This document shows, piece by piece, positions 6,947-46,740 of a stretch of 64,000 bases of DNA; the first letter of the stretch is position 1; every line of letters starts with the position of its first letter. The position numbers and the translations under genes were made by a program. The notes under the pieces are model-generated. The model worked only from the letters and a program-made list of their open reading frames with translations, did not search any database and was not told the DNA's origin. Where the stretch lies: assembly GCA_001899685.1 (NCBI GenBank), contig MKWG01000030.1, forward strand, positions 1 to 64,000. The letters are read 5' to 3'. This stretch comes from Sphingobacteriales bacterium 44-15. GTDB lineage: Bacteria > Bacteroidota > Bacteroidia > Chitinophagales > Chitinophagaceae.

Positions 6947-6978
6947 AACTTTGGTTTGTTGGGTGATAAAATATCAGT

Positions 6979-7054
6979 CTTCGCCGATTGTATATACATT
7001 GACCCACATACCGGCCAGCAGTGTTCCACCACTACTGGCTTTTTTATGAGCCAG
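6979..7054 (-). promoter_or_regulatory. Structured SusC leader element, copy 1 (two mutually exclusive hairpins plus ATACAATCGG motif)
   Basis: In the FecR-SusC spacer, read on the minus strand: CTGGCT, an 8-nt loop CATAAAAA and AGCCAG (7054-7035) form hairpin A. The CCAG of its 3' arm also starts hairpin B (CCAGTAGTG, 6-nt loop, CACTGCTGG; 7038-7015). After 21 nt comes ATACAATCGGCGAAG (6993-6979). The same order occurs before the plus-strand SusC at 40140. The structures share an arm, so only one can form at a time. Confidence 0.6.
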
Positions 7055-8460: not shown

Positions 8461-9045
8461 TCAAAAAAATCTTGTTGCCAGGCATACAAGCATCGATATT
8501 GTAAGCTCGCTTACTGAAGTCCGAAGCAATTTAAGCGCATTGCTTAATTGTTTTCTCACTGTATTTTCCGCAATACCCAGGCGGTCTGCGATCTCTTTAT
8601 AAGACATTTTCTCGTTGCGGCTTAAAAGATATACCTCCTGCATTTTAAGAGGCAGGCTTGCAACAGCCTGCTTTAATTTATGCTGTAATTCCCTGTATTC
8701 GCAATACCCGGCAGGATCAGCTTCATTCGCAACTATATTATCAGATAATGTTTGTAAATAATGATCACGGGTGATATTCTTTTCAATGTACCGTATAGCT
8801 ATATTCCGCACACTTTTCAGGAGATACCCTATCAGGGGTCCCTTCACTTCAATTTCCATACGGCGTTTCCAGATGGAAACAAACACCTCCTGAACAATAT
8901 CCCTGGCATCTTCCCTCGAATGTATTACCCTTAGCACCTGCAGCGCCAGCCGTTCCCAGTATCTCCGGTATATCTCTGCAAATGCCGCCGCATCACTGTT
9001 ACGCAGCAATCGCATCAAAGCATCGTCAGTCAGTTGGTGATACAT
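8461..9045 (-). CDS. ECF-type RNA polymerase sigma-70 factor (locus 1)
   Basis: A 194-residue two-domain ECF sigma factor. Region 2 includes the segment AEIYRRYWERLALQVLRVIHSREDARDIVQEVF at about 22-54 (DIVQEVF is the conserved 2.2 end). Region 4 has the helix-turn-helix YKEIADRLGIAENTVRKQLSNALKLL (about 150-175). It should direct transcription of the SusCD pair when released by the FecR downstream. Start ATG at 9045, with a TACATTTG promoter box 29 nt upstream. Confidence 0.93.
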   Translation of the reverse strand: MYHQLTDDALMRLLRNSDAAAFAEIYRRYWERLALQVLRVIHSREDARDIVQEVFVSIWKRRMEIEVKGPLIGYLLKSVRNIAIRYIEKNITRDHYLQTLSDNIVANEADPAGYCEYRELQHKLKQAVASLPLKMQEVYLLSRNEKMSYKEIADRLGIAENTVRKQLSNALKLLRTSVSELTISMLVCLATRFF

Positions 9046-25700: not shown

Positions 25701-26252
25701 TTCAACTGATTCGTAACCTATCATTGTTATCTGAAGTACAGCCTTATCATCCACTGCAATAGAAAAAGTCCCGTCTGCTCCCGTACTTACTCCGATGTTT
25801 TGACCTTTTACCTTTACAGATACCCCTTCCAAAGGATTCCCCGATTCATCCACAATTTTTCCCTTAACTTCCGCCTGGGCAGCCAGGACTTCCCTGTTAG
25901 GAGAGATCACTACAAGATAATCGCTTACAATCTTATAAGCCAATATGTTACCCAAAACCTGGTGCATGATTTCCGCCAACGTAGCATCCTTTACATTCAC
26001 GTCAACTTTTCCAAGTTTTTTAAGGTCATCTCTAAGATAAAAGAAACGATAGGGGCTCTTTTTCTGGATATCCATCAGAACCCTTGTAACATCTACCTGC
26101 TCCATCCTCAGTGAAAACTTCTCCTGGCCATAGCCCCGAGCAGATGCCTGAAGAAAGGGGAGTACCAACAATAATGCGGTTATTTTCATAAACAATAAAT
26201 ACTTAAATACCGGACTGCCTGTATGAGGTAGCCTGTACCTTATTTTTTTCAT
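22779..26252 (-). CDS. SusC-family TonB-dependent transporter with STN domain (locus 2)
   Basis: Taken from the ATG at 26252 this is 1157 residues. The frame stays open to 26354, but that extension would start inside a hairpin and looks non-coding. Parts: a long polar signal region with hydrophobic core FMKITALLLVLPFLQASA, an STN domain (LRMEQVDVTRVLMDIQKKSPYRFFYLRDD...), a carboxypeptidase-D-like domain (VKGKIVDESGNPLEGVSVKVKG), the plug (VVVGYGTQKKVNLTGAI) and a barrel ending GGAYINF. It imports oligosaccharides of the glycan locus in a TonB-dependent way and signals to the FecR encoded upstream. Confidence 0.92.
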   Translation of the reverse strand: MKKIRYRLPHTGSPVFKYLLFMKITALLLVLPFLQASARGYGQEKFSLRMEQVDVTRVLMDIQKKSPYRFFYLRDDLKKLGKVDVNVKDATLAEIMHQVLGNILAYKIVSDYLVVISPNREVLAAQAEVKGKIVDESGNPLEGVSVKVKGQNIGVSTGADGTFSIAVDDKAVLQITMIGYESVEVPVNGRRQLDNIVLRIAASGLNEVVVVGYGTQKKVNLTGAIGVVNTEDLNNIPAANLSNVIAGRAAGINAVGTSGLAGASSSIRMRGSFDEPLYVINGIIKSKADFDALDANEVASISFLKDAATASVYGSKAGNGVVLITTKTGKAQKPLFEYKGSYSGSTPTRPLQNFTATQEIEYLNQMAVTQGQPKPYGQEIYDYFKDKSYSINDYIWQTPTVQQHNLSVRGGTEAITYYLSLGYHDEKGSYKNLDYGRYNFRSDITAKVSKRFKINLNLSGNQRNYDRWYWPYDGAEDFNVSDFYRATFNWTRLYPFYVDAAGNPSTNTNDFPVVPGAWHPVELMVNSGGYRHTKYRTLDGILRFDLDLGDWVKGLSTSLVGQYTGNDKDMKSFVVFNKAYIFQSASATNKFIPGPIDPTKINLHNLSANYPNIAENLVFYNSYQVNWNLQYERSFNKHSVSALAVYEQGGEKVKNLSGRADALLTTSIDQIYNTSTDAGKRWFDGSEGETSRASWIGRLNYNYDEKYIAEFSFRYDGNFRFAPGHQWGFFPSVSAAWRISEENFLKDITWLSNLKLRASYGTTGNDDGGLYYSTQGSIAPFLWGPSYSKSTGYIFGTSLADGITIGGIPNPNLTWSTSRMFNIGVDYGFWGNKLTGELDYFTRKQINILGARNGSTPTTLGATLPPVNYAARSWKGFELSATWRDKAGNVNYSVFGNMGYSVDRWDILDQSAAATDGTYKDNWRNAIGKPQDRIYGLISKGIIRTQADLDKLPAGFTQYGRAPKLGYLLFEDIRGQNFSEGPDGKIDDNDMTYLSNNGAPRINYGIGFSVEWKGISVSALLQGVGAYDRMISTMNGGGVFQVDRPYFELWASDYWTPENPNAKYPRVSGEWMQPDIGGGPSTFWLRNGAYMRVKNLEIAYTLPKRWLSRAGIGRIQVFANGTNLLCISGMKEQDPEQKTLDSYPLMKTFTGGAYINF

Positions 26253-26338
26253 ACATTTGAATTGAAAAGTTAATAAAGGGGAATAAGCAGTCATTACAGG
26301 CTGGCTGATTCCGCTGTACAATACATTAGCTTTTTCCG

Positions 26339-26375
26339 GGGGAGAGAGCTCCAATCTCTTCCCCTTTTTAAAAGG
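26339..26375 (-). promoter_or_regulatory. SusC leader hairpins, possible degenerate copy 2
   Basis: On the minus strand a weak CCTTTT/AAAAGG palindrome overlaps by its last bases a stronger hairpin (GGGGAAGAGA with TCTCTCCCC, one bulge). About 20 nt later comes TGTACAGCGGAATC, loosely like the ATACAATCGG motif of the other two leaders. The layout agrees but the sequence does not, so this is tentative. Confidence 0.3.
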
Positions 26376-33063: not shown

Positions 33064-36000
33064 TTAAAATTTGAGATTGATGTTAACACCCACACTTCTC
33101 ATAGAAGGAGTTTGCAGTTCATCCCGCTCTGCATCCGGATCCACGTTAGGCAGTTTAGCAAAGATGAACAGGTTGTTCCCGATAAATGAAATGGAAGCAT
33201 TGTTAAAGACTCCTTTAGTCCATCTGGCAGGAAGCTGGTAAGTGAATACGAGCTCACGCATTTTCAAATACGAGCCGCTGTAATAAAAATAATTATTCAG
33301 CATTTGACCGCTGGTGGTCTGCATAAAGCTTATATAATTGACCGCAGTCGTATTAGGAGCAAACTTCCTGGTATCAGAAATAATATTGCCATGACTGTCA
33401 TATTCAATGCTTCCTGAGGTAACCACAACACCGGGGCCTACATAGGTGCTGTTGCCTGCATTAGCGTCATCCCGGAACTGGTTTACAGTCCCTCTCGCCG
33501 TTCCACCCCACCACATTTTCTGGTTGGTAGTGGAATAGATCAGTCCGCCGATCCTTCCGTCTACAGACAGATTAAGAGAGAAATTTTTGTAGGTGAAATT
33601 ATTCTGCCATCCGTAAATCCAGTCGGCATCACTGTATCCGAAAAATTGTCCGTAAGGCTCATAAGCCTGCATACCATTATCGTAATAAATAGCCTGACCA
33701 TCCGGCGCACGGGATGCCGTCATGTAGATCCTGTCCGTACGCTGCCCTTCTTTTATCTGCCCGATATACCCGTCGGGATTATCCGTTGCGTCTTTCAGCC
33801 AGGTATGCACATTGCTGAAATTGAAAGTGGTTTCCCACCTGAAATCCTTTCCACGCACCGGAAAGCCGCTCACAATAAATTCCCATCCTTTCCTGTAATA
33901 AACATTAGCATTTTTCAATACGCTGGTATTGCCGCTCGCCTGTGATTGCGCTACATTCACAAAATTGTTATAATCACGGTTGCTAAAATAGCTCACATCA
34001 AAATTGATCCTGTTATTGAAAAGCCCTAATGCCATCCCATACTCACCGGAGCGGGTAGTGGCGGGCACCAGGTCAGGAGAAATATAGGTAGTGGGCCATA
34101 TCAGTGAAGGAACATTATTCCATTTTGACCCTATTCCATACGTTGTAAGATGTGCATAAGGATTATCCTTGTCAATAAATCCGGTATTCACTTTAGCCCA
34201 GGAGCTCCGCAGTTTCAGGAAAGAAACAACTGAAGGCAATTTAAGCACATCAGACAATACCGCGGAAATACCGGCCGAAGGATAAAAATAGCCGTTATTT
34301 TTTACAGGGAGCGTGGAGGTCTTATCATAGCGCCCGGTAACAGACAGGTATAAAAACCCAAAGGTTTCAACATCCACCATGCCATAAACGCTCGCTGTTC
34401 TGCGTTCCTGCAAAACACTTGTGGTTTTGGGAGGGTTGATGGAATTGCTCAGGTTATAAAATTCAGGGATCGTAAGCCCGTCTGTGGTAGCGTAGGAACC
34501 CTCTAAGCGCCGGTATGCGTTTGCCCCGCCGGCAGTAATGTTGACATTGAACTTTTCATTAAAATCATGCTTATAATTTAATATCAGATCCGTATTAATA
34601 TCAAAATAGTTGCTGACATCGGTGGAATAGTTGCCCTGAGAAATATAATCGTATGCAATATAGCTGTACGGCTCCTTCAGATCAGCATTGGTTGCATACT
34701 GGTTGAAGCCATTCCGGAACTTCACTGAAAAATTATCTGTGAACTTATAATCAAAGGTTACCTGGCCAAAGCTGTTGTTTTTCCGGTATCCGTTTAAAAG
34801 CTGGTTGGCAATAAAATAGGGATTATTATACCAGGAAAGATTATAGTTTCTCTGTTGCAGCCCTTCTTTGCCGGGGATCCAGTAATTCTTCAGGTCGCGG
34901 ATATCTATATCCGGCCCGATCCAGAGAATGAGATTATACAAATAGTTAGGAGGACCATAACCAATGGTAGGATAATTATCAGAGTATTCCATATTGTAGG
35001 TAAGCTTTGCATCCATGCTCAGCTTTGGCGCGAGCTGGTAATTGCCACCGATGGAAAACGAGGAGTTGTTCACTCCCGTATTAGGCACTACACCTTTCTG
35101 GAAAATATGATTGGCAGAAACCCTGAAAGAGCCTTTTTCCGTGCCGACGGAAGCAGAAACGCTGTTGGTAGATAAAATGCCCGTACGGAAAAAGTTTTTG
35201 ATATTGTTTTTGCCGCGCGATATCCAGGGCAGAGGTACCAGCTCTCCGGTAACGGGATCAACCGGGCTGTTATACTGTGTTGTTTCATAATACCCGCTTG
35301 GAGTGGACGGATCTTTCTGATCTAATTTAGGGCCCCATATCCATCCTCCGCCTTCCGTGCCTCCTCCTGATCCGTCCTGATAAGCATAAGCGCCCTGGTC
35401 TCCATCTCCGTAGGTCGTTTGTACTTTAGGTATTACGGTATATCCTGTCTGGAACATGGTAGAGGAATTTATCTCAACAGCAAGCTTTCCTTTTTTCCCT
35501 TTCTTGGTAGTATACATGATGGCGCCATTCACGCCGAGCGCTCCATACAATGCGGCGGCGGCAGTGCCTTTTAATACGCTGATACTTTCTATATCGTCAG
35601 CGTTGATCTTGTAGGGATCAGCATCCGCATCAGGTATGCCATCAATAACAATAAGCGGGGTTTTGCCCCGCAATGAAATGCCGGGGTTACGGAATAAATC
35701 GGTAGTGTTGTTAATGTTCAGTCCCGCTACTTTGCCGGTCAATGCGCTCAGTGGCGTAGGCGTTTTCGTTTTGGCCATTGTTTCTCCATTTACCTCCTGT
35801 ACCGAATACCCTAATGTTTTTTGCTGTTTTTTAATACCAAGGGCTGTAGTAACTACAACTTCCGCTAAGTCGCCGGTTGTGCTTTTTTCCAGTACAACAT
35901 CAATCTCCCTGCGGCCATTTACCTGTACCTGTTGCGATAAATGCCCGGTAAAAGAGAATGTAAGCAGTGCATTCCCGGGCACAACTATTGAATACCTGCC

Positions 36001-36168
36001 ATCGTTGTTTGTTGTGGTTCCTTTAGAGGATCTGTTAACCACGATGGACACACCGGGCAACAATGAATTATCTGTTGCAGACCTGACGGTTCCGGTTACT
36101 GTTATGTCCTGGGATAAAGACATAAACCATAATAATTGTAGAAAAATGATCAAAGCAGTTGATTTCAT
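33064..36168 (-). CDS. SusC-family TonB-dependent transporter without STN domain (locus 4)
   Basis: A 1034-residue transporter from the ATG at 36168 (MKSTALIIFLQLLWFMSLSQ signal). The longer frame to 36282 ends inside the palindrome and is rejected. The signal is followed directly by a carboxypeptidase-D-like domain (about 23-92), then the plug (EVVVTTALGIKKQQKTLGYSV, about 98 on) and a barrel ending SVGVNINLKF. No STN domain is present, in keeping with the absence of sigma/FecR here. Regulation is likely through the divergent TetR gene and the palindrome 113 nt upstream. Confidence 0.92.
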   Translation of the reverse strand: MKSTALIIFLQLLWFMSLSQDITVTGTVRSATDNSLLPGVSIVVNRSSKGTTTNNDGRYSIVVPGNALLTFSFTGHLSQQVQVNGRREIDVVLEKSTTGDLAEVVVTTALGIKKQQKTLGYSVQEVNGETMAKTKTPTPLSALTGKVAGLNINNTTDLFRNPGISLRGKTPLIVIDGIPDADADPYKINADDIESISVLKGTAAAALYGALGVNGAIMYTTKKGKKGKLAVEINSSTMFQTGYTVIPKVQTTYGDGDQGAYAYQDGSGGGTEGGGWIWGPKLDQKDPSTPSGYYETTQYNSPVDPVTGELVPLPWISRGKNNIKNFFRTGILSTNSVSASVGTEKGSFRVSANHIFQKGVVPNTGVNNSSFSIGGNYQLAPKLSMDAKLTYNMEYSDNYPTIGYGPPNYLYNLILWIGPDIDIRDLKNYWIPGKEGLQQRNYNLSWYNNPYFIANQLLNGYRKNNSFGQVTFDYKFTDNFSVKFRNGFNQYATNADLKEPYSYIAYDYISQGNYSTDVSNYFDINTDLILNYKHDFNEKFNVNITAGGANAYRRLEGSYATTDGLTIPEFYNLSNSINPPKTTSVLQERRTASVYGMVDVETFGFLYLSVTGRYDKTSTLPVKNNGYFYPSAGISAVLSDVLKLPSVVSFLKLRSSWAKVNTGFIDKDNPYAHLTTYGIGSKWNNVPSLIWPTTYISPDLVPATTRSGEYGMALGLFNNRINFDVSYFSNRDYNNFVNVAQSQASGNTSVLKNANVYYRKGWEFIVSGFPVRGKDFRWETTFNFSNVHTWLKDATDNPDGYIGQIKEGQRTDRIYMTASRAPDGQAIYYDNGMQAYEPYGQFFGYSDADWIYGWQNNFTYKNFSLNLSVDGRIGGLIYSTTNQKMWWGGTARGTVNQFRDDANAGNSTYVGPGVVVTSGSIEYDSHGNIISDTRKFAPNTTAVNYISFMQTTSGQMLNNYFYYSGSYLKMRELVFTYQLPARWTKGVFNNASISFIGNNLFIFAKLPNVDPDAERDELQTPSMRSVGVNINLKF

Positions 36169-36280
36169 AGCAAACCTTTTTTTGTGAGGAGATGAGTACA
36201 GTTTTCTGGATTCTTCAGAACAAAAGTCCTGGTTTATAAATTTTGGCAAAAACAAATGTGCTAAATAAATATTAATTTTC

Positions 36281-36314
36281 AAAAATTTATTGAATGATCA
36301 TTCAATAAATTTTT
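36281..36314. promoter_or_regulatory. Perfect 34-bp palindrome, candidate TetR operator
   Basis: Every base of 36281-36297 pairs with 36298-36314. The core is TGAATGATCATTCA, flanked by AT-rich arms. This core is the usual size and style of TetR-family operators. On the SusC strand the palindrome ends in TTTTT at a G, and 19 nt on lies CACATTTG, one mismatch from the -7 consensus, so bound repressor could cover the -33 region. Confidence 0.75.
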
Positions 36315-36373
36315 TATCACATAACACAAAATTTACAATTGGTTAACCTTGAACCCGGGAATGTTTTTATAAA

Positions 36374-36450
36374 GTGGTGAGAGGTGGATGGGAATAGGGA
36401 ATAGGGAATAGGCAATGGTGAAAAGTGAGACGTGAAAAGTGAGCGGTCAG
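36374..36450. repeat. GGGAATA tandem and GTGAAAAGTGAG word repeats
   Basis: GGAATAGGGAATAGGGAATA is a 7-bp unit present three times. It is followed by GTGAAAAGTGAGACGTGAAA-type words, and further on TACCACTTATCACTTATCC can pair with them. Same word family as the sigma-FecR spacers. Confidence 0.5.
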
Positions 36451-36495
36451 TGAACGTGAATGATACCCTACACCTTACCACTTATCACTTATCCC

Positions 36496-36503
36496 TATAT
36501 TTG
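36496..36503 (+). promoter_or_regulatory. Bacteroidota -7 box (TATATTTG) before tetR
   Basis: TATATTTG matches TAnnTTTG and lies 21 nt before the ATG at 36525, which supports that start over the longer open frame from 36432. Confidence 0.5.
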
Positions 36504-36524
36504 TCCGGTCATCATATATACATT

Positions 36525-37130
36525 ATGGGAAGGAAAAGTATTAAAAGTATACGTCAGAAAGAAATTATCAACGCATTTTACAAAATCGCAAAGAAAGAAG
36601 GGCTCGAGAATGCTTCTATCGCAAAAACCGCAGCTTTGATCAATATTAACCCAAGCCTGGTCATTCACTATTTCAAAACCAAGGAACACCTGATCTATGG
36701 ATTGATCGACCATATTCTTGACAAATACCTGCTGATCTATGAGATCCCGGGATCGTATGCCAAAGACCCGAAAAAAGCGCTGCTGAAAGTCATTGATAAT
36801 ATTTTTTCGAATAAATGGAACAGGTTGTTTGACGACAGTGTTTCTTACAGTTGTTATTCGCTTAGTTTCAGAGACAGGAAAGTAAAAGCCAAGTATAAAA
36901 AGCTGCTGGATACATTAAGAAATAATCTTAAAAAAGTGATACAGGAGGGCAACAGGCAGGGTGTTTTGTCGGTAAAAGATCCGGAAATAGCTGCGGATAT
37001 TATTTTTGTTATCGTAGATGGCGCCTACTATTACCTGAGCCTTGTGCACAATAAAGACGAATACCGCCGGAAGCTGGCGCAGTATAAAAAGCAGGCTTTA
37101 CAGCAGCTTAGTTTTGTTTCCGCTTATTGA
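36525..37130 (+). CDS. TetR/AcrR-family transcriptional regulator
   Basis: A 201-residue regulator. The N-terminal helix-turn-helix domain (about 8-55) includes RQKEIINAFYKIAKKEGLEN and KTAALININPSLVIHYFKTK, with the HYFKTKEHL end typical of the family. A helical C-terminal ligand domain follows, including EIAADIIFVIVDGAYYYLSL. The earlier in-frame ATG at 36432 lies within intergenic repeats, upstream of the promoter box. It is divergent from the SusC/SusD/phosphatase group, and the 34-bp palindrome lies closer to SusC, so it probably represses that group. Its 3' end overlaps the convergent small membrane gene by 23 bp. Confidence 0.93.
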   Translation: MGRKSIKSIRQKEIINAFYKIAKKEGLENASIAKTAALININPSLVIHYFKTKEHLIYGLIDHILDKYLLIYEIPGSYAKDPKKALLKVIDNIFSNKWNRLFDDSVSYSCYSLSFRDRKVKAKYKKLLDTLRNNLKKVIQEGNRQGVLSVKDPEIAADIIFVIVDGAYYYLSLVHNKDEYRRKLAQYKKQALQQLSFVSAY

Positions 37131-37368
37131 TGGCGATGATAGCTGCAATGGCTATTATTCCCCAGAATACATTGGCTACTACGTTGGGAAAATCAGCATA
37201 ATAAAATGCATTGACGGTTAAACCGATGGCCCCGATAATATTCAGCAAATGGTATAGTCGCTGATTCGACGCCAATTTGTTAATGCTAAGCAGAAAATAA
37301 GCGAGTAAGTAGAAAAAAGTACCTGTCCATCCTAAAGCAAGGTGAATATTTAAAATGAATAGTAACAT
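37108..37368 (-). CDS. Small three-helix membrane protein (CBU_0592-like)
   Basis: An 86-residue membrane protein with three to four hydrophobic segments: LGWTGTFFYLLAYFLLSI, LYHLLNIIGAIGLTVNAFYY and ANVFWGIIAIAAIIAI, ending in a basic tail. Composition and the WxGxxxYLxAYxLLS / LNxxGAxGLxxNA pattern resemble the CBU_0592 family of unknown function. It overlaps the end of tetR convergently, so antisense interplay is possible. The coding call is supported by amphipathic patterning and a clean ATG. Confidence 0.75.
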   Translation of the reverse strand: MLLFILNIHLALGWTGTFFYLLAYFLLSINKLASNQRLYHLLNIIGAIGLTVNAFYYADFPNVVANVFWGIIAIAAIIAINKRKQN

Positions 37369-37544
37369 GTAACCTATTTTAAAATATAGCCCGGGTTAAT
37401 AAAGGTATGCAGCTTTGCAACAATATACATCGCTAAGCATTTCTGCCATAGACCCCACCATCATCCTGCTGCCTGTCATCCTGACCTAAGGAAGGGTTTG
37501 TATGCAGTGCATCAAATGATGTTTTTAGAAATGCAAAAATTATA

Positions 37545-37715
37545 TATATTTCTTTAGCGCGGCTTTGAGATTTTTGCCTGCCCGACTGGTCATTCAGGCG
37601 GGCGTAATTCCTTCGGATGCTTTGCGGCAAAATATAACCGCAAAGGAAATACAAGGTTTTTCGTCCGCCTGAACGAATCATTCGGGACCTCAAAGAAATC
37701 ATAACATGTCTCCAA
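37545..37715 (-). repeat. Dispersed intergenic repeat family R1, copy 2 (inverted)
   Basis: The reverse complement reads GTTATGATTTCTTTGAGGTC, then CCCGAATGATTCGTTCAGGC, then TTTGTATTTCC and GCGGTTATATTTT, matching 9205-9300 block by block. An internal GCCCGCCTGAAT/ATTCAGGCGGGC word appears in both directions. The 491-bp gap 37369-37859 holds this repeat, a 12-bp palindrome ATTGCCGGCAAT at 37781 and presumably the sigma promoter, but no convincing gene. Confidence 0.75.
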
Positions 37716-37859
37716 CCTTTTTATACACCAGGGAAACCAGTGGATATATCCCATATCTTACAGGCGCGCCTTCTCCTGTAATTGCCGGCAATCGCAAAGA
37801 ATTTTCTCAAACGGCAATGATTCTTTATTTTCGTATGTGAGAACTTAACTACTGCAAGA

Positions 37860-38462
37860 TTGTCTGTCCTTCAATCATATGATGAAACTGCATTGCTTGT
37901 GAGCGTATCCAAAGGCGATGAAACTTCATTTAAAATATTATTTGAAGCTCACTGGGACAGAATATACAGCGTAGCTTTTACTTTTACCAAATCGGCAATG
38001 ATAGCCGAGGAAATGGTGCAGGATGTGTTTGTAAAGATCTGGCTCCGCAGAACAGAACTGTCCTCCGTAAGAAAATTCAGCGACTATCTTTTTATCGTAG
38101 CAAGAAACCATATATTAAGCGTGCTCCGGAAAAAAATAATGGAAGAGCCTTTTGCAGAGCACCTTTCAGAATATTTCAAAGACATTTCCAATATGCCCGA
38201 CCAGCAATTGCTGCGCAGGGAAACAGAAGCGCTCGTTTTGCAGGCAGTCGAAAAATTACCTCATCAGCAACAAATGGTATATACACTAAGCCGGCAGCAG
38301 GGACTAAGCCTTGATGAGATCGCCTCAAGACTTTCCATATCAAAGCATACCGTAAAATCGCACATGAGCAAAGCGCTGCATTTTATCCGCCAGTACCTTC
38401 ATACACATTCAGATGTAGGAGTTATTACCGTTTTCTATTGCATCATTTCCGGTGTGTTGTAG
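37860..38462 (+). CDS. ECF-type sigma-70 factor (locus 3)
   Basis: A 200-residue ECF sigma factor. Region 2 is FKILFEAHWDRIYSVAFTFTKSAMIAEEMVQDVFVKIW. Region 4 is LSLDEIASRLSISKHTVKSHMSKALHFIRQYL. The only suitable start is TTG at 37860 (TTG TCT GTC CTT); no in-frame ATG lies nearby, so a weak start may keep the level low. A near-consensus -7 box (TATTTTCG) lies about 30 nt upstream. It is first in the plus-strand regulatory and SusCD locus. Confidence 0.92.
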   Translation: MSVLQSYDETALLVSVSKGDETSFKILFEAHWDRIYSVAFTFTKSAMIAEEMVQDVFVKIWLRRTELSSVRKFSDYLFIVARNHILSVLRKKIMEEPFAEHLSEYFKDISNMPDQQLLRRETEALVLQAVEKLPHQQQMVYTLSRQQGLSLDEIASRLSISKHTVKSHMSKALHFIRQYLHTHSDVGVITVFYCIISGVL

Positions 38463-38503
38463 AAGTTAGGTCAATCGAATTATGGCAGCATGTTATCGCG
38501 AGA

Positions 38504-38570
38504 AGTAAGAGGTGAAAAGTGAGCGGTAAGCGTTTCATTTCCCGTTTGTCGTTTCACGTTTCACGATTAT
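38504..38570. repeat. GAGGTGAAAAGTGAGCGG / CGTTTCACGTTTCACG word repeat (locus 3)
   Basis: AAGAGGTGAAAAGTGAGCGG is followed by CATTTCCCGTTTGTCGTTTC and CACGTTTCACG, which are complementary in pattern and could fold. It occupies most of the sigma-FecR spacer. Confidence 0.5.
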
Positions 38571-38655
38571 TTAAAAAATTCTCTCCGCCCACTCATACTG
38601 CCATCCTTTTTTTGCGTCTTTACTCCGTAAAGCTTTTTTTACAACCGGCTGCTAT

Positions 38656-39915
38656 ATGAACGAAGCTCAATTCAAAATGCTGCTGGAACGTTATATTAAC
38701 GACCAGCTATCATCCGAAGAACTCTCTATATTCATTGCTTTCCTGCGTACATATAATAATACAGGTCAACTGGAGGAGCTTGTAGACCAGGCATTGCAGA
38801 ACAGCAGCTTTTCCGGGCTTTCTGACCGTTCGAAATCGGAAAATATTTTTCAAAAGATCCTGCAGCAGGCAAAAATTACAGAAGCGCAATCCACACCGGG
38901 GGAGCTTTCAATTAAAGCCGGGAGCAGCTACAGCAGGTTACGACCCTGGCGGTGGGCAGCAGCAGCTTCTCTCTTAATAGGTATATCGGCCATCAGCTAT
39001 ATTGTTTTCTCAAAAAAAAATCAAAAAGCAACCTATGTTGCTGCTGCTAAAGCAGAAAAAACTCCTGCAACCGATGCTGAACCCGGCGGGAACAGGGCAG
39101 TTTTAAAGCTGGCAGACGGACAGGAACTGGCACTGGACAGCGCAGGAGTGGGTGCGGTTGCCCGGCAGGGATATTCCACCGTACTGAAAACAGGCAACGG
39201 GCAACTGGCTTATAATACCACCGCCGGACCGGCAACAGAAACACTATATAACACGCTTTCCACTCCCAGGGGCGGACAATACCAGCTCCTGCTCCCCGAC
39301 GGAAGTAAAGTATGGCTCAATGCGGCATCCTCACTGCGCTTCCCGGTTGCCTTTACTGAAAAAGACAGGATAGTAGAGCTGACAGGCGAAGCCTATTTTG
39401 AAATAGCCCGTCTGGAGACTAAAAGCGGAGAACGCCGCTCCTTTATAGTGCGGAGCAGCCATCAGAATGATAACAGCGCAGACTGGCAGGTAGAAGTTTT
39501 GGGCACACACTTTAATGTAATGGCTTATGCCAATGAAGCGGCTGTTCAAACCAGCCTGCTGGAAGGTTCTGTAGCATTTTCCGCAGCAGGAAAGCCAGCA
39601 GTGAAGATAAAACCAAATCAGCAGGCCGTACTGTATAAAGACAGGCAAAATGTACAGGTAAATAATGCTAATGTAGTAAATGCTATCGCCTGGAAAGAAG
39701 GGCTCTTTCACTTTATCAGCGACGACATACAGCATATTATGAGGCAACTGGAGAGATGGTATGATGTGAATGCCGTGTATGCCGGCGCCATCCCCCCGGG
39801 GCATTACAGCGGCATTGTATCAAGGGATAGTAAGCTGTCAACAGTTTTAAAAATTTTAGAAGAAAGCGGGCTTCATTTTAAAATACAGGATAAAGTACTG
39901 ACTATTTTCCCGTAA
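38656..39915 (+). CDS. FecR-family anti-sigma factor (locus 3)
   Basis: A 419-residue anti-sigma factor. Cytoplasmic region to about residue 95; transmembrane helix about 98-116 (AAAASLLIGISAISYIVF). Periplasmic FecR domain with TPRGGQYQLLLPDGSKVWLN, ELTGEAYFEI and VLGTHFNVMAY, then the DUF4974-type domain (HFISDDIQHIMRQLERWYDV). It controls the sigma factor encoded 194 bp upstream and is followed after about 225 bp, with the structured leader, by its SusC. Confidence 0.93.
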   Translation: MNEAQFKMLLERYINDQLSSEELSIFIAFLRTYNNTGQLEELVDQALQNSSFSGLSDRSKSENIFQKILQQAKITEAQSTPGELSIKAGSSYSRLRPWRWAAAASLLIGISAISYIVFSKKNQKATYVAAAKAEKTPATDAEPGGNRAVLKLADGQELALDSAGVGAVARQGYSTVLKTGNGQLAYNTTAGPATETLYNTLSTPRGGQYQLLLPDGSKVWLNAASSLRFPVAFTEKDRIVELTGEAYFEIARLETKSGERRSFIVRSSHQNDNSADWQVEVLGTHFNVMAYANEAAVQTSLLEGSVAFSAAGKPAVKIKPNQQAVLYKDRQNVQVNNANVVNAIAWKEGLFHFISDDIQHIMRQLERWYDVNAVYAGAIPPGHYSGIVSRDSKLSTVLKILEESGLHFKIQDKVLTIFP

Positions 39916-40029
39916 TGATCAACGTACGTACCTATTGACAACGGCAGGAGCGGTTTTTGAGTGACAAGGAGAAGCTATTGATTATATCTTACCCCGAACT
40001 TCTGAAGAAAGACAAATTATCCGGTAATT

Positions 40030-40105
40030 CTGGTTAGCCAAAAAACCAGGGATGATTGCAGCACCCCTGGAGCAGGGTTAATCATTTTTATACAATCGGT
40101 CGAAG
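40030..40105 (+). promoter_or_regulatory. Structured SusC leader element, copy 3 (two mutually exclusive hairpins plus ATACAATCGG motif)
   Basis: CTGGTT, an 8-nt loop AGCCAAAA and AACCAG (40030-40049) form hairpin A. CCAG (40046-40049) also opens hairpin B, CCAGGG with CCCTGG (40046-40070). After 19 nt comes ATACAATCGGTCGAAG (40090-40105). Compared with copy 1 the hairpin A arms read CTGGYT/ARCCAG, a swapped base pair, and TAAT precedes both. Remaining gap sequence shows nothing else clear. Confidence 0.6.
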
Positions 40106-40139
40106 GATTGTTTTTTCATAACCCAAACATTACAAATGT

Positions 40140-43100
40140 ATGAAATTAAAAGCCGAATTGATGGTGCCACCCGGTGTGGGACCACTACTTTCCAAAACTT
40201 TACTGATTATGAAACTTACGGTTGTTGTATTGATCGCTGCCTGCCTGCAGCTTCATGCCGAAGGTTACGCACAAAAGCTGACAGTAAATGAAAAAAATGT
40301 GCCTGTTCAAAAAATTTTCAAGATCATTGAGCAGCATACTTCCTATCATTTTTTTTACAAAGATGAGCTCCTGCGGGATATGGGAACGGTAAGCGTAGAT
40401 GCGAAAAATGCAACTGTTGAAACATTGCTTGACGTATGCTTCAACCAGTCTCCGTTAACCTATTCCATCGTAGAAAAAACCATTATTATCAAAAAGAAGG
40501 GAGAACAGTTATCCGACGGGGAGAATACTACAATTCCCCTCGCGGAAATCAAAGGGCAGATCAAAGACAACGAAGGCAACCCGGTTCCCGGAGCCTCAGT
40601 AAAAAACCGCCGCACAGGCAAAGGCGTTGCCACCGATGCAGAAGGGAACTTTTCTATTGAGGCGGCAGTAAATGATCTTATTGAGATCAGCTCGATAGGA
40701 TTCGAATCCCAGACTGTTAAGATCACCTCCCTGCAACAGGTGATAAATATTTCACTGAAAATAGCCGCTTCCGAATTAGAGAATACCGTTATTGTAGGTT
40801 ACGGCAGCCAGAAGAAGAAAACGCTTACAGGCGCTGTGTCCTCTATCAGCGGATCGGCCATGGTCACTACCAAAAACGAGAACCCGCAAAACATGCTGAC
40901 AGGGAAAATTGCCGGTGTAAGAGTAGCGCAAAAGACGGCAGAGCCGGGAGCATTCAATAACGCATTTGATATCCGTGGCTTTGGCTCCCCGCTTATCGTT
41001 ATTGACGGCATACCCCGTTCCATGGCAGACTTCCAGCGCCTGAACGCCAATGATATTGATAATATATCCGTTTTGAAAGATGCCTCTGCCGCCATTTATG
41101 GAGTACGCTCTGCAAACGGTGTAGTGCTGATCACTACTAAAAAAGGAAAGAACAATGAGAGCGTTTTATCCTACGATGGCAACTACACTTTCCAGTTCCC
41201 TTCAGGCTTCCCTAAAACTGTAGACATATACCAGTATATGACGCTCCGCAATGAGCAGGCCATGCATAATATTAACGGGGGAACACCTATATACAGTGAT
41301 CAGGTCTTTGAAGAATACAGGAACGGTACAAGAAAGAGCTATGACTGGTATCCTTTGGTATTTGCCAAATATGCGCCTGAAACCCAGCATAATTTAAGCT
41401 TTACCGGCGGGAACGACCGGATCCAGTATTATGTTGGGGGCGGATACCTGAACCAGGGAAGCTTTTTCAAAACAAATGACCTGAATTATAATAAATATAA
41501 TCTCCGCGCAAGCATTACTGCAAAGATTGCCAAGCAGTTCACATTAGATGCCAATATCAACCTGGTCACAGAAACCACTAACCAGCCCTACCAGAGTGCC
41601 TGGTGGGCTATACGGTCATTCTGGCGGCAGGGCCCGCAAATACCCGCGTATGCAAATGATGACCCCACCAAACCATATTACGGTTTGATAGAAGGCGACA
41701 ACCCGATATCCTTTATGGATAAAGATATAAACGGGTACCGGGTATATAAAAATAACTGGATCCAACCCGTACTGGCTATCCGCTATGATATACCGGCTAT
41801 ACCGGGTTTATATGCAAAAACCCTGTTCAGTTACGATTATTATTTTTCCAATAACAATATTTTCCAGAAAGAATACAAGGAATACCGGTATGATGAAGCT
41901 TCCCAAACCTATACCACCTATACCAGGCAGTCGCCCGACAGGATAACCAGGGAAGCTTATTACAATTCGCAGATCTTAAGCCAGACCTCGTTGAACTATG
42001 CTCACAGCTTTGCAGGCGATCATAAAGTTGATGCAGCGCTTATCTGGGAAACCCAAAAAAGGCAGGGAGACAATTTTTCGGCACAGAGAGACCTGGCGCT
42101 GCCTCTTCCCTATTTATTTGCCGGGCTTCCTTTAAACCAGATAGGAACGATGAATACGGATGGTTTGTATGAGTATTCCAACCTGGGATTGGCCGGAAGG
42201 TTGAACTATGCATTCAGGGGAAAATACCTCGCTGAGTTTTTATTCCGGGAAGACGGCTCCTCAAAATTTTCGAAGGGATACCAGTGGGGATTCTTTCCCG
42301 GAGGATCAGTAGGCTGGCGTATCTCGGAAGAAGATTTTTTCAGAAAATCCAATGCCCTGTCATTTGTGCAGCAATTAAAGCTGCGGGCTTCTTATGGCAT
42401 TACGGGTGACGACGGTGCGGCAGCTTATCAATGGGTAGGGGGATATAATTATCCGACATCGCCCACAGATCGCAGGAACTTTACCGGCGGATATGTATTT
42501 AACGGGAACTTTATTGCCAGCGCCAGCAGCAAAGGAATTGTTAATCCTGCCATCACGTGGTATACTTCCCACACTTTTGATGCAGGAGTGGATTTTATAG
42601 GATGGAACGGGCTGCTGGGTGTTACATTGGATTACTTTGTAAGAAAACGGGACGGTTTGCTTACGCAACGCAACGGCGGTATTCCCACAGTGGTAGGCGC
42701 TGCGCTTCCACAGGAAAATCTGAACAGCGACATGAACTACGGGTATGACCTTGAAGTTACCCACAACAATAATGTCGGCGCTTTTTTCTATAGTCTTAAA
42801 GGCATTTTTTCCTATACCCGTGTGAAAGCCCTCTATGTCGAAAGAGGTCCGAACGGGAGCTCCTTCTGGAACTGGAGAAACAACCAGAATGACCGTTTGC
42901 AAAATGTATGGTGGGGATGGACCGGCAATGGCAGGTTTGAATCATGGGACGATATCTGGAACAGCCCGGTGTATGTGGGTCGCGGAACTTTACCCGGCGA
43001 CTACCGCTATGAAGACTGGAATGGTGACGGTGAGATCAATGACCTGGACAAGCATCCCTACCAGTTGAGCTCTACGCCATGGATCAATTACGGGCTTTCG

Positions 43101-43580
43101 GCTAACCTGTCTTACAAAGGCGTTGACCTGTTCCTGCTGTTCCAGGGTTCTGCGCTTTCCACAGTGCAATATGTAGAGCAACTGCAGATCCCGCTATGGG
43201 GGAATGGCGAATCGGGTGCAATGGCGCAGTTTGTGGACCGCTGGCATCCTAAAGATCCTGCAGCAGATCCTTATGATCCGAAAACAGAATGGGTGCCCGG
43301 CTATTATGCTTATACGGGAACAGTACCGGATGCATCCTCCTCTTACAACTCCGTTAACGGAGCCTACTTAAGATTAAAAACAATTGAGCTGGGATATACC
43401 CTGCCTGAAAAATGGACCAAAAAAGCCGGGATAAAGAACACACGTTTTTATGTGAACGCGTATAATTTACTGACCGCTACCAAAGTAAAGTATATTGATC
43501 CGGAGCATCCCAATGATACTTACGGTTACTTATACCCCTTAAATAAAACCGTTTCGGTAGGCTTAAATGTTACATTTTAA
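40140..43580 (+). CDS. SusC-family TonB-dependent transporter with STN domain (locus 3)
   Basis: A 1146-residue transporter. An N-terminal polar extension leads to the hydrophobic core LLIMKLTVVVLIAACLQLHA (21-40). STN domain about 47-118, carboxypeptidase-D-like domain about 136-207, plug from VIVGYGSQKKKTLTGAV (218 on), barrel ending VSVGLNVTF. It partners the SusD encoded 11 nt downstream and signals to the FecR upstream. The start at 40140 fits the leader alignment with the first SusC; Met24 is an alternative. Confidence 0.93.
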   Translation: MKLKAELMVPPGVGPLLSKTLLIMKLTVVVLIAACLQLHAEGYAQKLTVNEKNVPVQKIFKIIEQHTSYHFFYKDELLRDMGTVSVDAKNATVETLLDVCFNQSPLTYSIVEKTIIIKKKGEQLSDGENTTIPLAEIKGQIKDNEGNPVPGASVKNRRTGKGVATDAEGNFSIEAAVNDLIEISSIGFESQTVKITSLQQVINISLKIAASELENTVIVGYGSQKKKTLTGAVSSISGSAMVTTKNENPQNMLTGKIAGVRVAQKTAEPGAFNNAFDIRGFGSPLIVIDGIPRSMADFQRLNANDIDNISVLKDASAAIYGVRSANGVVLITTKKGKNNESVLSYDGNYTFQFPSGFPKTVDIYQYMTLRNEQAMHNINGGTPIYSDQVFEEYRNGTRKSYDWYPLVFAKYAPETQHNLSFTGGNDRIQYYVGGGYLNQGSFFKTNDLNYNKYNLRASITAKIAKQFTLDANINLVTETTNQPYQSAWWAIRSFWRQGPQIPAYANDDPTKPYYGLIEGDNPISFMDKDINGYRVYKNNWIQPVLAIRYDIPAIPGLYAKTLFSYDYYFSNNNIFQKEYKEYRYDEASQTYTTYTRQSPDRITREAYYNSQILSQTSLNYAHSFAGDHKVDAALIWETQKRQGDNFSAQRDLALPLPYLFAGLPLNQIGTMNTDGLYEYSNLGLAGRLNYAFRGKYLAEFLFREDGSSKFSKGYQWGFFPGGSVGWRISEEDFFRKSNALSFVQQLKLRASYGITGDDGAAAYQWVGGYNYPTSPTDRRNFTGGYVFNGNFIASASSKGIVNPAITWYTSHTFDAGVDFIGWNGLLGVTLDYFVRKRDGLLTQRNGGIPTVVGAALPQENLNSDMNYGYDLEVTHNNNVGAFFYSLKGIFSYTRVKALYVERGPNGSSFWNWRNNQNDRLQNVWWGWTGNGRFESWDDIWNSPVYVGRGTLPGDYRYEDWNGDGEINDLDKHPYQLSSTPWINYGLSANLSYKGVDLFLLFQGSALSTVQYVEQLQIPLWGNGESGAMAQFVDRWHPKDPAADPYDPKTEWVPGYYAYTGTVPDASSSYNSVNGAYLRLKTIELGYTLPEKWTKKAGIKNTRFYVNAYNLLTATKVKYIDPEHPNDTYGYLYPLNKTVSVGLNVTF

Positions 43581-43591
43581 TAATGATCATT

Positions 43592-45655
43592 ATGAAATCT
43601 AAATATTATTTCCTTTATATCATACTGGGGCTGTGCTTTGCAAACATCTCCTGTAAAAAGTACCTTGATGTTCCTCCCGTAAATATTGTAAATGAAGGTG
43701 ATCTTTTTTCCAACTCCAAGGGAATGCAGTTGTACTTATCACGGATGTATAGCCAGATGCCTTTTGAAGATTTTAAATATTCACCTGCAAGACAGTTTTT
43801 TGATGACTGGCTGGTAACCCCGGGAACCAATGAAGGCTCCTCTCTTGGAAGAGATGCAGGCGAGGCTATGACCTCTGAAGGCTGGGCGCGTAACGGAGCA
43901 TATTGGGTAAGGGCATTTAACCTGCTGAGGGATGCGAACAACCTGCTGGAGAAGCTTCCCTCCTATAAAGCTAATTTCAGCGATGAAGAATATAATCACT
44001 ACATCGGGGAAGCTTATTTTACCCGCGCAATGGTATTTTATGCGCTGGCAAAAAGATACGGGGGCATACCATTGGTTACCTCATTGCTGCAATATCCCGA
44101 AAAGGATGCGGCACAATTAGAAGTTCCCCGCGCTACAGAAGAAGAAACCTGGGACCAGGTACTTGCCGACTATGATATGGCTATTGCAAATCTGAACGAA
44201 GCCAGCCCGGTGAAAGGCTATGCCAACAAATATGTGGCGCTGGGTTTTAAATCGGAAGCCATGTTGTTTGCAGGAAGCGTGGCAAAGTACAACAGGATAA
44301 CAGGATTCGGGCAAAAGACCGGGGTGAGGGTAATAGGATTTGATCCCGCTACCGCCACCGCCGCTTCTAAAAAATATTTTTCGGAAGCATACAAAGCAGC
44401 AAACACCATTATCAAATCGGGAAAATATTCTTTGTACAAAAAGAAATGGTCTGCAGGCGACAAAGAAGCCCAGTACCAGAATATGGTTGACATGTTCTTT
44501 GATGCTTCAAGCCCTGAGAATATTTATACTAAAGATTATAAATGGCCCGACCTTGCCCATGGTTATGATTCTTACAATATTCCCCGCCAGTTGATGGGTG
44601 GTAACGGATACTCTGCCGGTAATTGTCCCACGCTTGATTTTGTAGAATTATTTGATGGCATTGCCAAAAATCCTGACGGAACTATTAAAGTGCTTGACAA
44701 CAATGGTAAGTACCTTTTGTTTGATAAGCCTACAGATATTTTTGCCGACGCTGAACCCCGCTTAAGAGCCAACGTCATCTTCGCAGGCGATGTCTTTAAA
44801 GGAGCGGTAATGGATGTGAGAAGAGGAATATACACAGGGAGCGTTGCCGGCGGTATTGCACCCCTGCGTGTGGTGAACGGGGCAACCAATTATACAATAG
44901 GTGGGCCGCAAACCTATAATCAAACGGATGCATATACTGCCACCGGTGCTTTCGCAGGACACAAGTCATTGTTCTTATCTCAAAACGGCACTACTCACGA
45001 GGTGGTTACTTTACCTGACGGCACCAAAATGAATGGCGGCGGACTAAATGGCCCCTTCGGTACGTCAGACCTGACTGCCGCATTCACAGGCTTTATGGTG
45101 CGCAAATGGCTCGATCCCAACCTTCCCCAGGAGCTGGTGCTTGAAGGAAGGTCAGAGCAATCTTTTATTTTAATGCGCTATGCTGAAATACTGTTAAATG
45201 CAGCAGAGGCTGCATCTGAACTGGCGCTGGCAGGAGCTGCTTCCCCTGATGGCGATGATCTGCAACAGGTGATGTATGATGCTATCACAAATATCAGGGA
45301 GAGGGCCGGGGCAGACCCGCTGACAGGAATGTCGGAGCTTGCAGGGGAACAGGGCTTACAGGTCATACGCAGGGAACGCCGGAAAGAGCTGGGATTTGAG
45401 AACAAGATCCTCTGGGATATACGCAGGTGGAGAACGCAGCATTCAGACATGCTCAACGGCTTTACACAATCGGACGGCGCCTACTACCGCGGTCTGTATC
45501 CTTTCTATTCTTCAGTAGCTGATAAGTGGTTCTTTGATGCAGGATTTGAAGAAGCAAGAAAACGTTTCAGGATAACAGAGCAGGAATATTATTTTATGAT
45601 ACCAGGCGATGAAGTGACCAAGAGCCCTGTTATAGATCAGCAACCGGGCAGATAG
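43592..45655 (+). CDS. SusD/RagB-family lipoprotein (locus 3)
   Basis: About 687 residues from the ATG at 43592 (frame also open from 43583). The signal ends at the lipobox ANISC followed by KKYLDVPP. SusD core features are GEAYFTRAMVFYALAKRYGGIPLVTS, SFILMRYAEILLNAAEAASE and RRERRKELGFENKILWDIRRWR. It is longer than usual because of an insertion around residues 290-510 rich in Gly, Asn and Asp, perhaps an extended ligand surface. It follows SusC and precedes a DUF3823 lipoprotein, a typical glycan-locus order. Confidence 0.92.
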   Translation: MKSKYYFLYIILGLCFANISCKKYLDVPPVNIVNEGDLFSNSKGMQLYLSRMYSQMPFEDFKYSPARQFFDDWLVTPGTNEGSSLGRDAGEAMTSEGWARNGAYWVRAFNLLRDANNLLEKLPSYKANFSDEEYNHYIGEAYFTRAMVFYALAKRYGGIPLVTSLLQYPEKDAAQLEVPRATEEETWDQVLADYDMAIANLNEASPVKGYANKYVALGFKSEAMLFAGSVAKYNRITGFGQKTGVRVIGFDPATATAASKKYFSEAYKAANTIIKSGKYSLYKKKWSAGDKEAQYQNMVDMFFDASSPENIYTKDYKWPDLAHGYDSYNIPRQLMGGNGYSAGNCPTLDFVELFDGIAKNPDGTIKVLDNNGKYLLFDKPTDIFADAEPRLRANVIFAGDVFKGAVMDVRRGIYTGSVAGGIAPLRVVNGATNYTIGGPQTYNQTDAYTATGAFAGHKSLFLSQNGTTHEVVTLPDGTKMNGGGLNGPFGTSDLTAAFTGFMVRKWLDPNLPQELVLEGRSEQSFILMRYAEILLNAAEAASELALAGAASPDGDDLQQVMYDAITNIRERAGADPLTGMSELAGEQGLQVIRRERRKELGFENKILWDIRRWRTQHSDMLNGFTQSDGAYYRGLYPFYSSVADKWFFDAGFEEARKRFRITEQEYYFMIPGDEVTKSPVIDQQPGR

Positions 45656-45691
45656 CAGTCAATTGAAAGTAAAAAAGTAAACATTACACAA

Positions 45692-46486
45692 ATGAAAACG
45701 ATTCTATATAATATCATAAGTTTGATCATATTGTCAGGCTGCGCAAAGATTGACAACTATGCGGAACCGGGAGAGACCTTAAAAGGCACTGTGGTGGATG
45801 CTGCTACCGGCGACCCGGTGCTTACCGACCAGGGAAGCGAAGGCACAAGAATAAGGATGCGGGAATTGAGCTGGACAGCCTCGGCTCCCGAAAACCTTGA
45901 TTTCTTTTGCATGAAAGAAGGGATATTCCAGAATACCAAAGTGTTTAAAGGACACTACAACGTAAGAGTAGATGGCGCTTTTATTCCTATCGTGCGGGTA
46001 GATACCAACGGAGATACGCTGGTAGATGAGTCCAAAACGCTTGACATAAGCGGGGTGACTGAACTGGAATTTAAAGTACAGCCATTTCTCAAATTGGAAT
46101 GGCAGGGAACACCTACTGTAGAGAATGGTAAAGTTACCGCAACGGTAGTTGTTACCCGTGGCGTAAGTCCGGAAGACTTTAAAACCAAAATTGAGCCTAT
46201 GGGCAATTACAGCGATGACTTTTTAAACGTTACCGATGTACGTTTATTTGTGAGCCAGGTGCCGTATGTAGGCTACCGGGAATGGGATAATCGCTATACC
46301 ACTATTATTGAGTATCCCGGGGATTCATTTGAAGCGCATTTAGGCGAGCCTATAACGATTACCACGCAAGGCACTATACCATCGGGAAGGACGGTATTTA
46401 TCAGGGCGGCCGCAAGGATCAATTATGCCACAGAAAATATCAAGCGGCATAATTATAATGAAGCGCTAAGGGTGGATATACCTTAG
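45692..46486 (+). CDS. DUF3823-type lipoprotein, likely surface glycan-binding accessory
   Basis: A 264-residue lipoprotein with signal and lipobox ILSGC (Cys17). GETLKGTVVDAATGDPV begins an N-terminal beta domain, and KVFKGHYNVRVDGAFIPIV and the C-terminal immunoglobulin-like stretch (VTDVRLFVSQVPYVGYREWDN) fit DUF3823 proteins, which commonly follow SusD. Its role is probably ligand binding beside SusCD (inference). It begins 36 nt after SusD. A nested inverted-repeat element separates it from the next gene. Confidence 0.8.
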   Translation: MKTILYNIISLIILSGCAKIDNYAEPGETLKGTVVDAATGDPVLTDQGSEGTRIRMRELSWTASAPENLDFFCMKEGIFQNTKVFKGHYNVRVDGAFIPIVRVDTNGDTLVDESKTLDISGVTELEFKVQPFLKLEWQGTPTVENGKVTATVVVTRGVSPEDFKTKIEPMGNYSDDFLNVTDVRLFVSQVPYVGYREWDNRYTTIIEYPGDSFEAHLGEPITITTQGTIPSGRTVFIRAAARINYATENIKRHNYNEALRVDIP

Positions 46487-46531
46487 GAGATGCGGGATGG
46501 CTTTTTGGGGATCGCTCTTTAATTTTTACCA

Positions 46532-46653
46532 GTAACTGGATAAGCCGCCTCTTTTTGTCTGGTCCCGCCGCAGGCGGGATTGAAAAAATGCGAAGCATAT
46601 TTTTTCAAAGGGCAAAAAGCAGCGGCGTTCCAGTTACGCAGCCCGCCGGCTGC
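46532..46653. repeat. Nested inverted-repeat element (about 106 bp) plus adjacent hairpin
   Basis: Outer arms GTAACTGGATAAGCCGCC...TTTTTG (46532-46557) and CAAAAAGCAGCGGCGTTCCA...(46613-46637) are an imperfect inverted repeat. Inside are CCCGCCGCAGGCGGG (46564-46578) and TGAAAAAATGC...GCATATTTTTTCA (46581-46607). Directly after is GCAGCC-CGCC-GGCTGC (46638-46653). The inner TGAAAAAATGC hairpin recurs at 51863. No gene is present between 46487 and 46740. Confidence 0.7.
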
Positions 46654-46740
46654 GGAGGCAAACGAAATGAATTAAAATGAACATGCCTGATAAGTAAAGT
46701 CTCATTCAATCCAAAACACTCAATTCTAAACAGATACAGC

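Follow-up and report, generated by a model that had tools for sequence, protein, structure and literature searches.

Predicted cis-antisense RNAs opposite FecR-linked susC genes in a Bacteroidota genome

What is carried by the short spacer between a fecR gene and the susC gene that follows it, and on which strand is it read? The window, by which we mean the whole 64,000-nucleotide stretch of DNA analysed here, holds two SusC operons on opposite strands whose leaders share a structured element, and in both of them FecR lies upstream, SusC downstream and an ECF sigma factor gene before FecR (Pfam). At the 40 kb locus, on the plus strand, the sigma factor gene (37860–38462; PF08281, PF04542) is followed by the FecR anti-sigma regulator (38656–39915; PF16344, PF04773), SusC (40140–43580; STN, CarbopepD_reg_2 and Plug domains) and SusD (43583–45655). 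At the 7 kb locus, on the minus strand, Pfam matches place the ECF sigma factor at 8461–9045, FecR at 7063–8259 and SusC at 3458–6946. An earlier sequence-only reading had described in each leader a hairpin A (CTGGTT-8 nt-AACCAG at 40030–40049 on the plus strand, CTGGCT-8 nt-AGCCAG at 7054–7035 on the minus strand), a hairpin B running from CCAG to CTGG over 25 nt (40 kb) and 24 nt (7 kb), a spacer of 19 and 21 nt, respectively, and then ATACAATCGG(T)CGAAG. All of these parts are found where that reading put them; the varying base pair of hairpin A exists as well, but it is second in from the loop, not third.

We surveyed the 6.0 Mb genome for FecR–SusC spacers. Its 64 FecR_C matches reduce to 58 FecR genes after removal of 6 in open frames of 1125–1213 aa, which we interpret as STN domains of SusC itself. 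For 55 of the 58, a long ATG ORF starts within 320 nt; the other 3 have none such and were dropped. The ORF is SusC-like in 53 of the 55 (phmmer, queried with both window SusCs), the exceptions being L053 and L059, which are both without the element; among the matches listed, with 56 of 160 candidates scored, TIGR04056 matches begin less than 1500 nt behind 37 of the 55 loci. Start-box and hairpin-rule counts use the 53 SusC loci, terminator-score, consensus and wobble counts still use the 55, and the profile HMM was built partly from L053 and L059. The hairpin rule demands a hairpin score of at least 14 and at least 5 A in the preceding 8 nt, in spacers of at least 45 nt before SusC, and the hairpin finder scored A·C and G·T alike. 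Among relatives, 102 of 116 loci (L083–L198) entered the wobble count, and 127 of 160 (L083–L198, L209–L252) have SusC behind a gap of at least 0. Taking the first ATG shortened some spacers (for example L160, L173 and L196, and L267, L268 and L270 in the orthologue set). Since the genus loci include orthologues of loci in this genome, the genus counts are not independent of its own counts. Pairing was what the hairpin search selected for, so the share of paired positions cannot count as evidence; the excess of A·C over G·T, the side on which the T-run lies and the permuted-partner tests can. In the same survey the genome holds 58 FecR and at least 56 SusC genes, and FecR-linked SusC proteins are mostly longer (open frames of about 1110–1230 aa) than most FecR-less ones (about 1030–1120 aa). 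The FecR-like genes L059 (C45:194363) and L012 (C45:195732) are apparently in tandem, as the ORF after the L059 match resembles the L012 FecR.

The most prominent part of the element is a hairpin with an A-run before it. Among the 52 spacers of this genome that lie before SusC and reach 45 nt, 44 have it, far more than chance would give, and in 3 a T-run follows the hairpin; by the hairpin rule it is missing in the other 8 and in 20 of 64 spacers from the genus. The hairpin is mostly G+C-rich, with the A-run on its sense 5′ side, and its distance to the SusC ATG is around 70 nt (median 71 nt, range 43–95, in the 44 elements). Read on the antisense strand, it has the form of an intrinsic terminator, and 33 of 55 spacers score above 0 as terminators in that direction, as opposed to 1 of 55 (L059) in the sense direction; of 550 shuffles, the antisense direction passes in 0.18% and the sense direction never does. 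In the given copies this terminator hairpin is hairpin B, located by terminator score and wobble counts at 40046–40070 on the minus strand, with its T-run (AAAAAA in sense) at 40040–40045, and at 7014–7039 on the plus strand, with the T-run at 7040–7045. A terminator scan of 36000–46700 lists the minus-strand hairpin 40070–40046 first, out of 10 sites in total, no more than in shuffles (10.8). A degenerate hairpin pattern occurs at 8 places in the genome, 7 of which are FecR–SusC leaders. The eighth (L205, C43:107772) lies 3′ of a gene that, from our reading of its ORF, we take to encode ribosomal protein L20, with the T-run on the coding strand and a hairpin almost identical in sequence to those of the SusC leaders (GCCGGCAGTG...CACTACCGG and T-run), and this placement is a positive control for the terminator reading.

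The imperfect pairs of the stem also distinguish the strands. Read in sense, the non-Watson–Crick positions comprise 28 A·C and 6 G·T in this genome (44 elements; binomial p 2e-4), 30 A·C and 1 G·T in the genus (44 elements; p 3e-8) and 4 A·C and 2 G·T in the wider set (12 elements). As a sense A·C is a G·U in antisense RNA, the antisense-strand fold is apparently kept by selection. The sequence-only reading had taken the structure to lie on the sense strand, and here it fails, since both the side of the T-run and the G·U pattern point to the antisense strand.

Among 20 SusC genes without FecR directly upstream, 4 pass the hairpin rule, of which two, L064 and L075, resemble plain AT-rich palindromes. 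Two others, L080 and L081, seemingly have A's before a hairpin, do not pass the rule, and have their nearest listed FecR on the other strand; if these are copies, it would be SusC, and not the 3′ end of fecR, that the element accompanies. Some longer spacers (L031, L033, L045, L050 and L057) contain GTGAAACGTGAGACGTGAGA-like repeats and their complements upstream of the terminator, possibly an interspersed palindromic repeat that has settled between FecR and the antisense unit.

At the other end of the element, over the SusC start codon, lies a sequence that resembles a promoter box. Alignment of the 55 spacers on the ATG gives, before its A, the consensus C62 A85 A87 A89 n n T89 (percent), that is CAAAnnTATG in sense and TAnnTTTG in antisense, the -7 box of the Bacteroidota housekeeping promoter (PMC7366714, PMC6847099, in the passages available). 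The box is exact at 30 of 53 SusC starts, which thereby match all six fixed -7 positions of the sigma-ABfr promoter (TTTG / TAnnTTTG), and within one mismatch at 44 of 53. Among the 20 SusC genes without FecR directly upstream, 1 is exact and 3 are within one mismatch, and the single exact box (L068) comes with the hairpin too; among 25 other genes of the window, none is exact and 1 is within one mismatch. In the given copies, the predicted boxes, called by sequence and family statistics, are TACATTTG at 40133–40140 on the minus strand and TAACTTTG at 6946–6953 on the plus strand. In Flavobacterium johnsoniae, by the available text of PMC6847099, the housekeeping promoter is TAHHTTTG and transcription starts about 5 nt after the -7 box. 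Among 56 exact boxes from element-positive loci of this genome and its relatives, C never occurs at sense -3, as H demands, but does occur 7 times at -2, so the composition, as far as sequence goes, agrees roughly with this rule. The -33 box is weak across the family, and neither the 40 kb nor the 7 kb copy has a TTTG at the expected place. A -33-like CAAA (at most one mismatch) peaks at +20 in 25 and at +21 in 19 of 88 good-box elements, against 0–9 of 88 at the remaining positions from +10 to +33; the peak thus falls at the spacing expected of a -33 box, 19 nt.

The window also contains a third copy that the sequence-only reading missed, before the SusC near 26.3 kb, in the third FecR–SusC pair of the window. 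Terminator score, wobble counts and sequence place the terminator hairpin at 26338–26364 and the T-run at 26365–26369, both on the plus strand, and an exact TACATTTG box lies at 26252–26259, also on the plus strand, on the SusC ATG at 26252–26250. This minus-strand SusC is listed as 22779–26354. Judging from the sequence, the ATG is probably the likelier start; the listed TTG at 26354 falls inside the terminator hairpin and probably lies upstream of the true start.

Between box and terminator, the predicted antisense RNA has a median length of 92 nt (62–115 in the 44 elements, with the start placed about 12 nt before the ATG), and 39 of the 44 fall between 78 and 128 nt. From the box distance and the fold, the 40 kb RNA is predicted at 40038–40128 on the minus strand, about 90 nt from a start near 40128 to the end of the T-run; the fold places the 7 kb RNA, about 89 nt, at 6958–7046 on the plus strand. 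A 5′ stem joins the first bases of the RNA to the stretch immediately preceding the terminator, with arms located by fold and permuted-arm tests at 40119–40124 (sense TAACCC) and 40075–40080 (sense GGGTTA) on the minus strand, and at 6960–6964 (sense ACCCA) and 7002–7006 (sense TGGGT) on the plus strand. Matched arms score higher than permuted ones, 13.20 versus 11.18 in this genome (n = 41, 0 of 5000 permutations), and the same holds in the genus (n = 38, 0 of 5000) and the wider set (n = 12, 5 of 5000). The z-scores for Watson–Crick pairing alone, with antisense G·U and with sense G·U are 5.6, 8.1 and 4.1 in this genome, 6.0, 8.7 and 4.8 in the genus, and 3.4, 5.5 and 2.7 in the wider set. 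Between the arms, the fold predicts an inner stem-loop at 40092–40111 on the minus strand (sense ACAATC...GATTGT), spanning most of the ATACAATCGGTCGAAG motif, and at 6975–6990 on the plus strand (sense CAATC...GACTG); ATACAATCGG(T)CGAAG lies mostly within this stem-loop in both given copies. Its support is modest, with z under antisense rules of 3.5 in this genome (1.5 under sense rules), 2.3 in the genus and 1.3 in the wider set.

Covariation was scored on an alignment of 28 sequences that we picked from the 44 of this genome. The two helices together score 0.388. Shuffles score 0.215, with none of 500 reaching the real value, and sliding the helices yields no more than 0.176. Pairs that change on both sides in some sequence make up 4 of 7 in the 5′ stem and 10 of 10 in the terminator. 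RNAalifold on the same 28 sequences (MAFFT) reports the terminator helix alone, probably because gaps in that alignment misplace the 5′ stem. Model R1 (7 pairs) was left out of the analysis. Together with the permuted-arm tests, this family covariation bears out the earlier idea of a conserved structured element in FecR–SusC spacers whose pairing is maintained despite sequence change; its anatomy, strand and covariation can be regarded as demonstrated at the level of sequence.

RNAfold predicts the 5′ stem, the inner stem-loop and the terminator in both given antisense RNAs. The folding energy of these two copies separates no strand: at 40 kb, z is -2.17 in antisense and -2.19 in sense, and at 7 kb, z is -4.15 and -3.40, with energies of -27.2 and -28.2 kcal/mol, respectively. 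The evidence for the strand is that of the family, in which the mean MFE is -31.6 in antisense versus -22.6 in sense, with antisense the more stable in 42 of 44 elements of this genome. A known Rfam family was considered and dropped: there are no covariance model matches in the window at the gathering score, and none up to E 1 in 20 loci.

We read the element as a family of DonS-type cis-antisense RNAs that probably dampen susC, and assign this reading a probability of roughly 0.77. Each element-bearing FecR–SusC spacer would specify an RNA of about 90 nt in cis, transcribed from the strand opposite SusC. TAnnTTTG on the SusC start codon would be recognised by the housekeeping sigma factor, in part of the family together with a TTTG-like word 19–20 nt upstream of the -7 box, within susC. 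Starting about 12 nt ahead of the SusC ATG, on the opposite strand, transcription would cross the SusC leader and end at hairpin B and its T-run, between the leader and FecR. The RNA would fold into a 5′ stem that pairs its initial bases with those preceding the terminator, in many cases an inner stem-loop, and then the terminator hairpin. We infer that it is transcribed and also, by analogy with DonS in Bacteroides fragilis, that it lowers susC expression; the lowering would most likely come about by pairing with the SusC leader, and antisense transcription through the leader possibly adds to the repression.

The main alternative to leader-pairing repression is that antisense transcription through the leader and the probable promoter blocks the ECF-driven start, with the RNA as a by-product. 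The geometry suits such interference, as the leader lies within the predicted antisense unit and the -7 box overlaps the SusC start codon, but it has no need of a conserved, covarying RNA fold. From that fold we argue that the RNA itself matters, not the act of transcription alone, and we consider interference by itself unlikely. It is also improbable that hairpin B is merely an insulator, halting stray antisense transcription from susC before it enters fecR and the sigma factor gene, with no regulatory RNA involved. The terminator is indeed the strongest part of the element, and the same form ends an ordinary gene, that of ribosomal protein L20; an insulator, however, needs neither a promoter-like box at a fixed place on the start codon nor a 5′ stem that covaries on the antisense strand.

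Could CAAAnnTATG be a signal for translation initiation and not a promoter box? Bacteroidota favour A at -6 and further A's upstream (PMC6847099, available text), and the positions that source names for A are -3, -6, -12 and -13, but the spacers analysed here have G (45%) or A (35%) at -3, C (58%) at -12 and T (89%) at -1. Moreover, at 141 other mechanically called ORF starts from loci of this genome, the box is exact in 0 and within one mismatch in 7. These control starts come from both strands, each being the first ATG in a mechanical ORF no shorter than 150 aa, and some of the ORFs are surely not genes. A translation signal is, accordingly, a very improbable explanation.

The proposal that hairpins A and B exclude each other in the sense RNA, as in an attenuator or a protein-switched susC leader, depends on hairpin A, whose pattern turns up only 4 times in the 6.0 Mb genome, counting the 2 given leaders (40030–40049 and 7035–7054, assigned by pattern and orthologues). 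Close orthologues largely retain it. For the 40 kb locus, all 3 orthologues (L254–L256, FecR 64–68% identical) have both arms, and for the 7 kb locus it is intact, wobble-paired or changed on both sides in 4 of 6 (L266–L271, 71–81%): L267 is intact, L266 and L268 are wobble-paired, L270 carries a paired change, L271 has an A·C and in L269 the hairpin is broken. This retention indicates that hairpin A is not a pure accident in the lineage. It is missing in the more distant L272 and L273; over 36 spacers of this genome, matched arms score 7.94 versus 7.95 for permuted ones, which is no signal, and in 38 genus and 10 wider spacers the complementarity of the upstream arm is not significantly above permuted. 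Hairpin A is a lineage feature and not a general part of the element, as it would have to be for an A/B switch. In favour of the proposal, the sense fold of 40024–40080 includes hairpin A. Given that the sense fold of 7060–7005 omits it, the scarce sense T-run, wobble pairs that suit the antisense strand, and a sense terminator score above 0 in a single spacer that does not precede SusC, we reject the sense attenuator as scarcely credible. A DNA site for the cognate sigma factors, sought as a -35/-10 pair by eye and by 5-mer counts, was rejected too, as GGYTAAC-like to ACTG-like distances vary too much, such pieces often fall in the stem arms of the antisense RNA in many spacers, and the strand-specific wobble pattern would be left unexplained. 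A separate count of WTRYAATNGG told us nothing, with 223/235 matches and 275/302 in the control. Plain inheritance by SusC duplication does not account for paralogue hairpins with very different arm sequences.

DonS and other PUL-associated cis-antisense RNAs of Bacteroides were reportedly described by Cao et al. in 2016, and the PULs of DonS-type RNAs are under sigma/anti-sigma control. RNAI, CopA and RNA-OUT are likewise short, folded RNAs opposite a leader or primer that end at an intrinsic terminator; in contrast to these, the RNAs predicted here would number dozens of paralogues in each genome and go together with FecR-linked nutrient uptake. In the available passages, DonS represents a family of 78–128 nt cis-antisense RNAs opposite susC homologues, and a housekeeping-type promoter box precedes 52% of the cis-antisense RNAs of B. 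thetaiotaomicron (PMC7366714), a species with 32 annotated PUL-associated antisense RNAs for which functional characterisation is said to be needed (PMC10994844). The mechanism of DonS is termed unknown in the portion of PMC11697453 at hand, correlations between PUL antisense RNAs and susC go in both directions in that of PMC10994844, and a Flavobacterium transcriptome mentions antisense RNAs generally (PMC9723704, in part). The likeness to DonS is one of place, strand, predicted length and promoter type, compared by description and not by DonS sequence. It comprises an opposite-strand terminator and a promoter-like box at the susC leader, a predicted length within the DonS family range in 39 of 44 elements, and an ECF sigma factor and FecR beside both given copies, the loci of this genome being FecR-preceded by selection; the lengths are predicted from sequence, and expression and repression of susC are presumed. 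What differs from the Bacteroides RNAs is the predicted occurrence outside named Bacteroides, the defined two-helix fold and the constant position of the -7 box over the SusC start codon. The kind of RNA is already known, and the defined architecture and breadth are the new part. Among titles and abstract openings we did not find the element described outside Bacteroides, which is no proof of absence in print.

The element is widespread and not universal, and many sampled taxa are without the hairpin. Counted as hairpin plus A-run in SusC-followed spacers of at least 45 nt, it occurs in 44 of 64 loci of the genus, in 4 of 8 of the family outside the genus and, in other families of the class, in 3 of 7 (f3), 5 of 7 (f5), 1 of 1 (f8) and 7 of 12 (f52). 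A single locus from a Stygiobacter genome (G046; 100% match to a Stygiobacter record) has it as well, 1 of 1; Stygiobacter belongs to the class Ignavibacteria, which NCBI assigns to the phylum Ignavibacteriota and the genome set places with the phylum of the window. It is absent from 3 of 3 loci in f20, from the one locus in each of f2, f25, f56 and f64, and from the one locus in each of G014, G019, G024, G033, G041, G045, G061 and G069. A contig search with the FecR of L154 returned 2 loci, neither from Bacteroides.

The fixed architecture of start-codon box, 5′ stem and terminator allows such RNAs to be looked for in sequence alone; it extends the PUL antisense RNAs, reported from Bacteroides, to other Bacteroidota lineages and gives bases to mutate. 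With 44 paralogous copies and matched arm changes, one genome provides a natural data set on how antisense RNAs avoid cross-talk. More tentatively, and with the odds somewhat against it, most ECF/FecR-controlled SusC operons in these bacteria may carry their own structured antisense RNA as an ancient layer of control, fired by the housekeeping sigma factor from a promoter locked onto the SusC start codon. The 5′ stem-loop would serve for recognition and differ among paralogues, which would keep dozens of brakes private within one cell. If so, such operons would in general be off by default until the ECF sigma factor overcame these RNAs.
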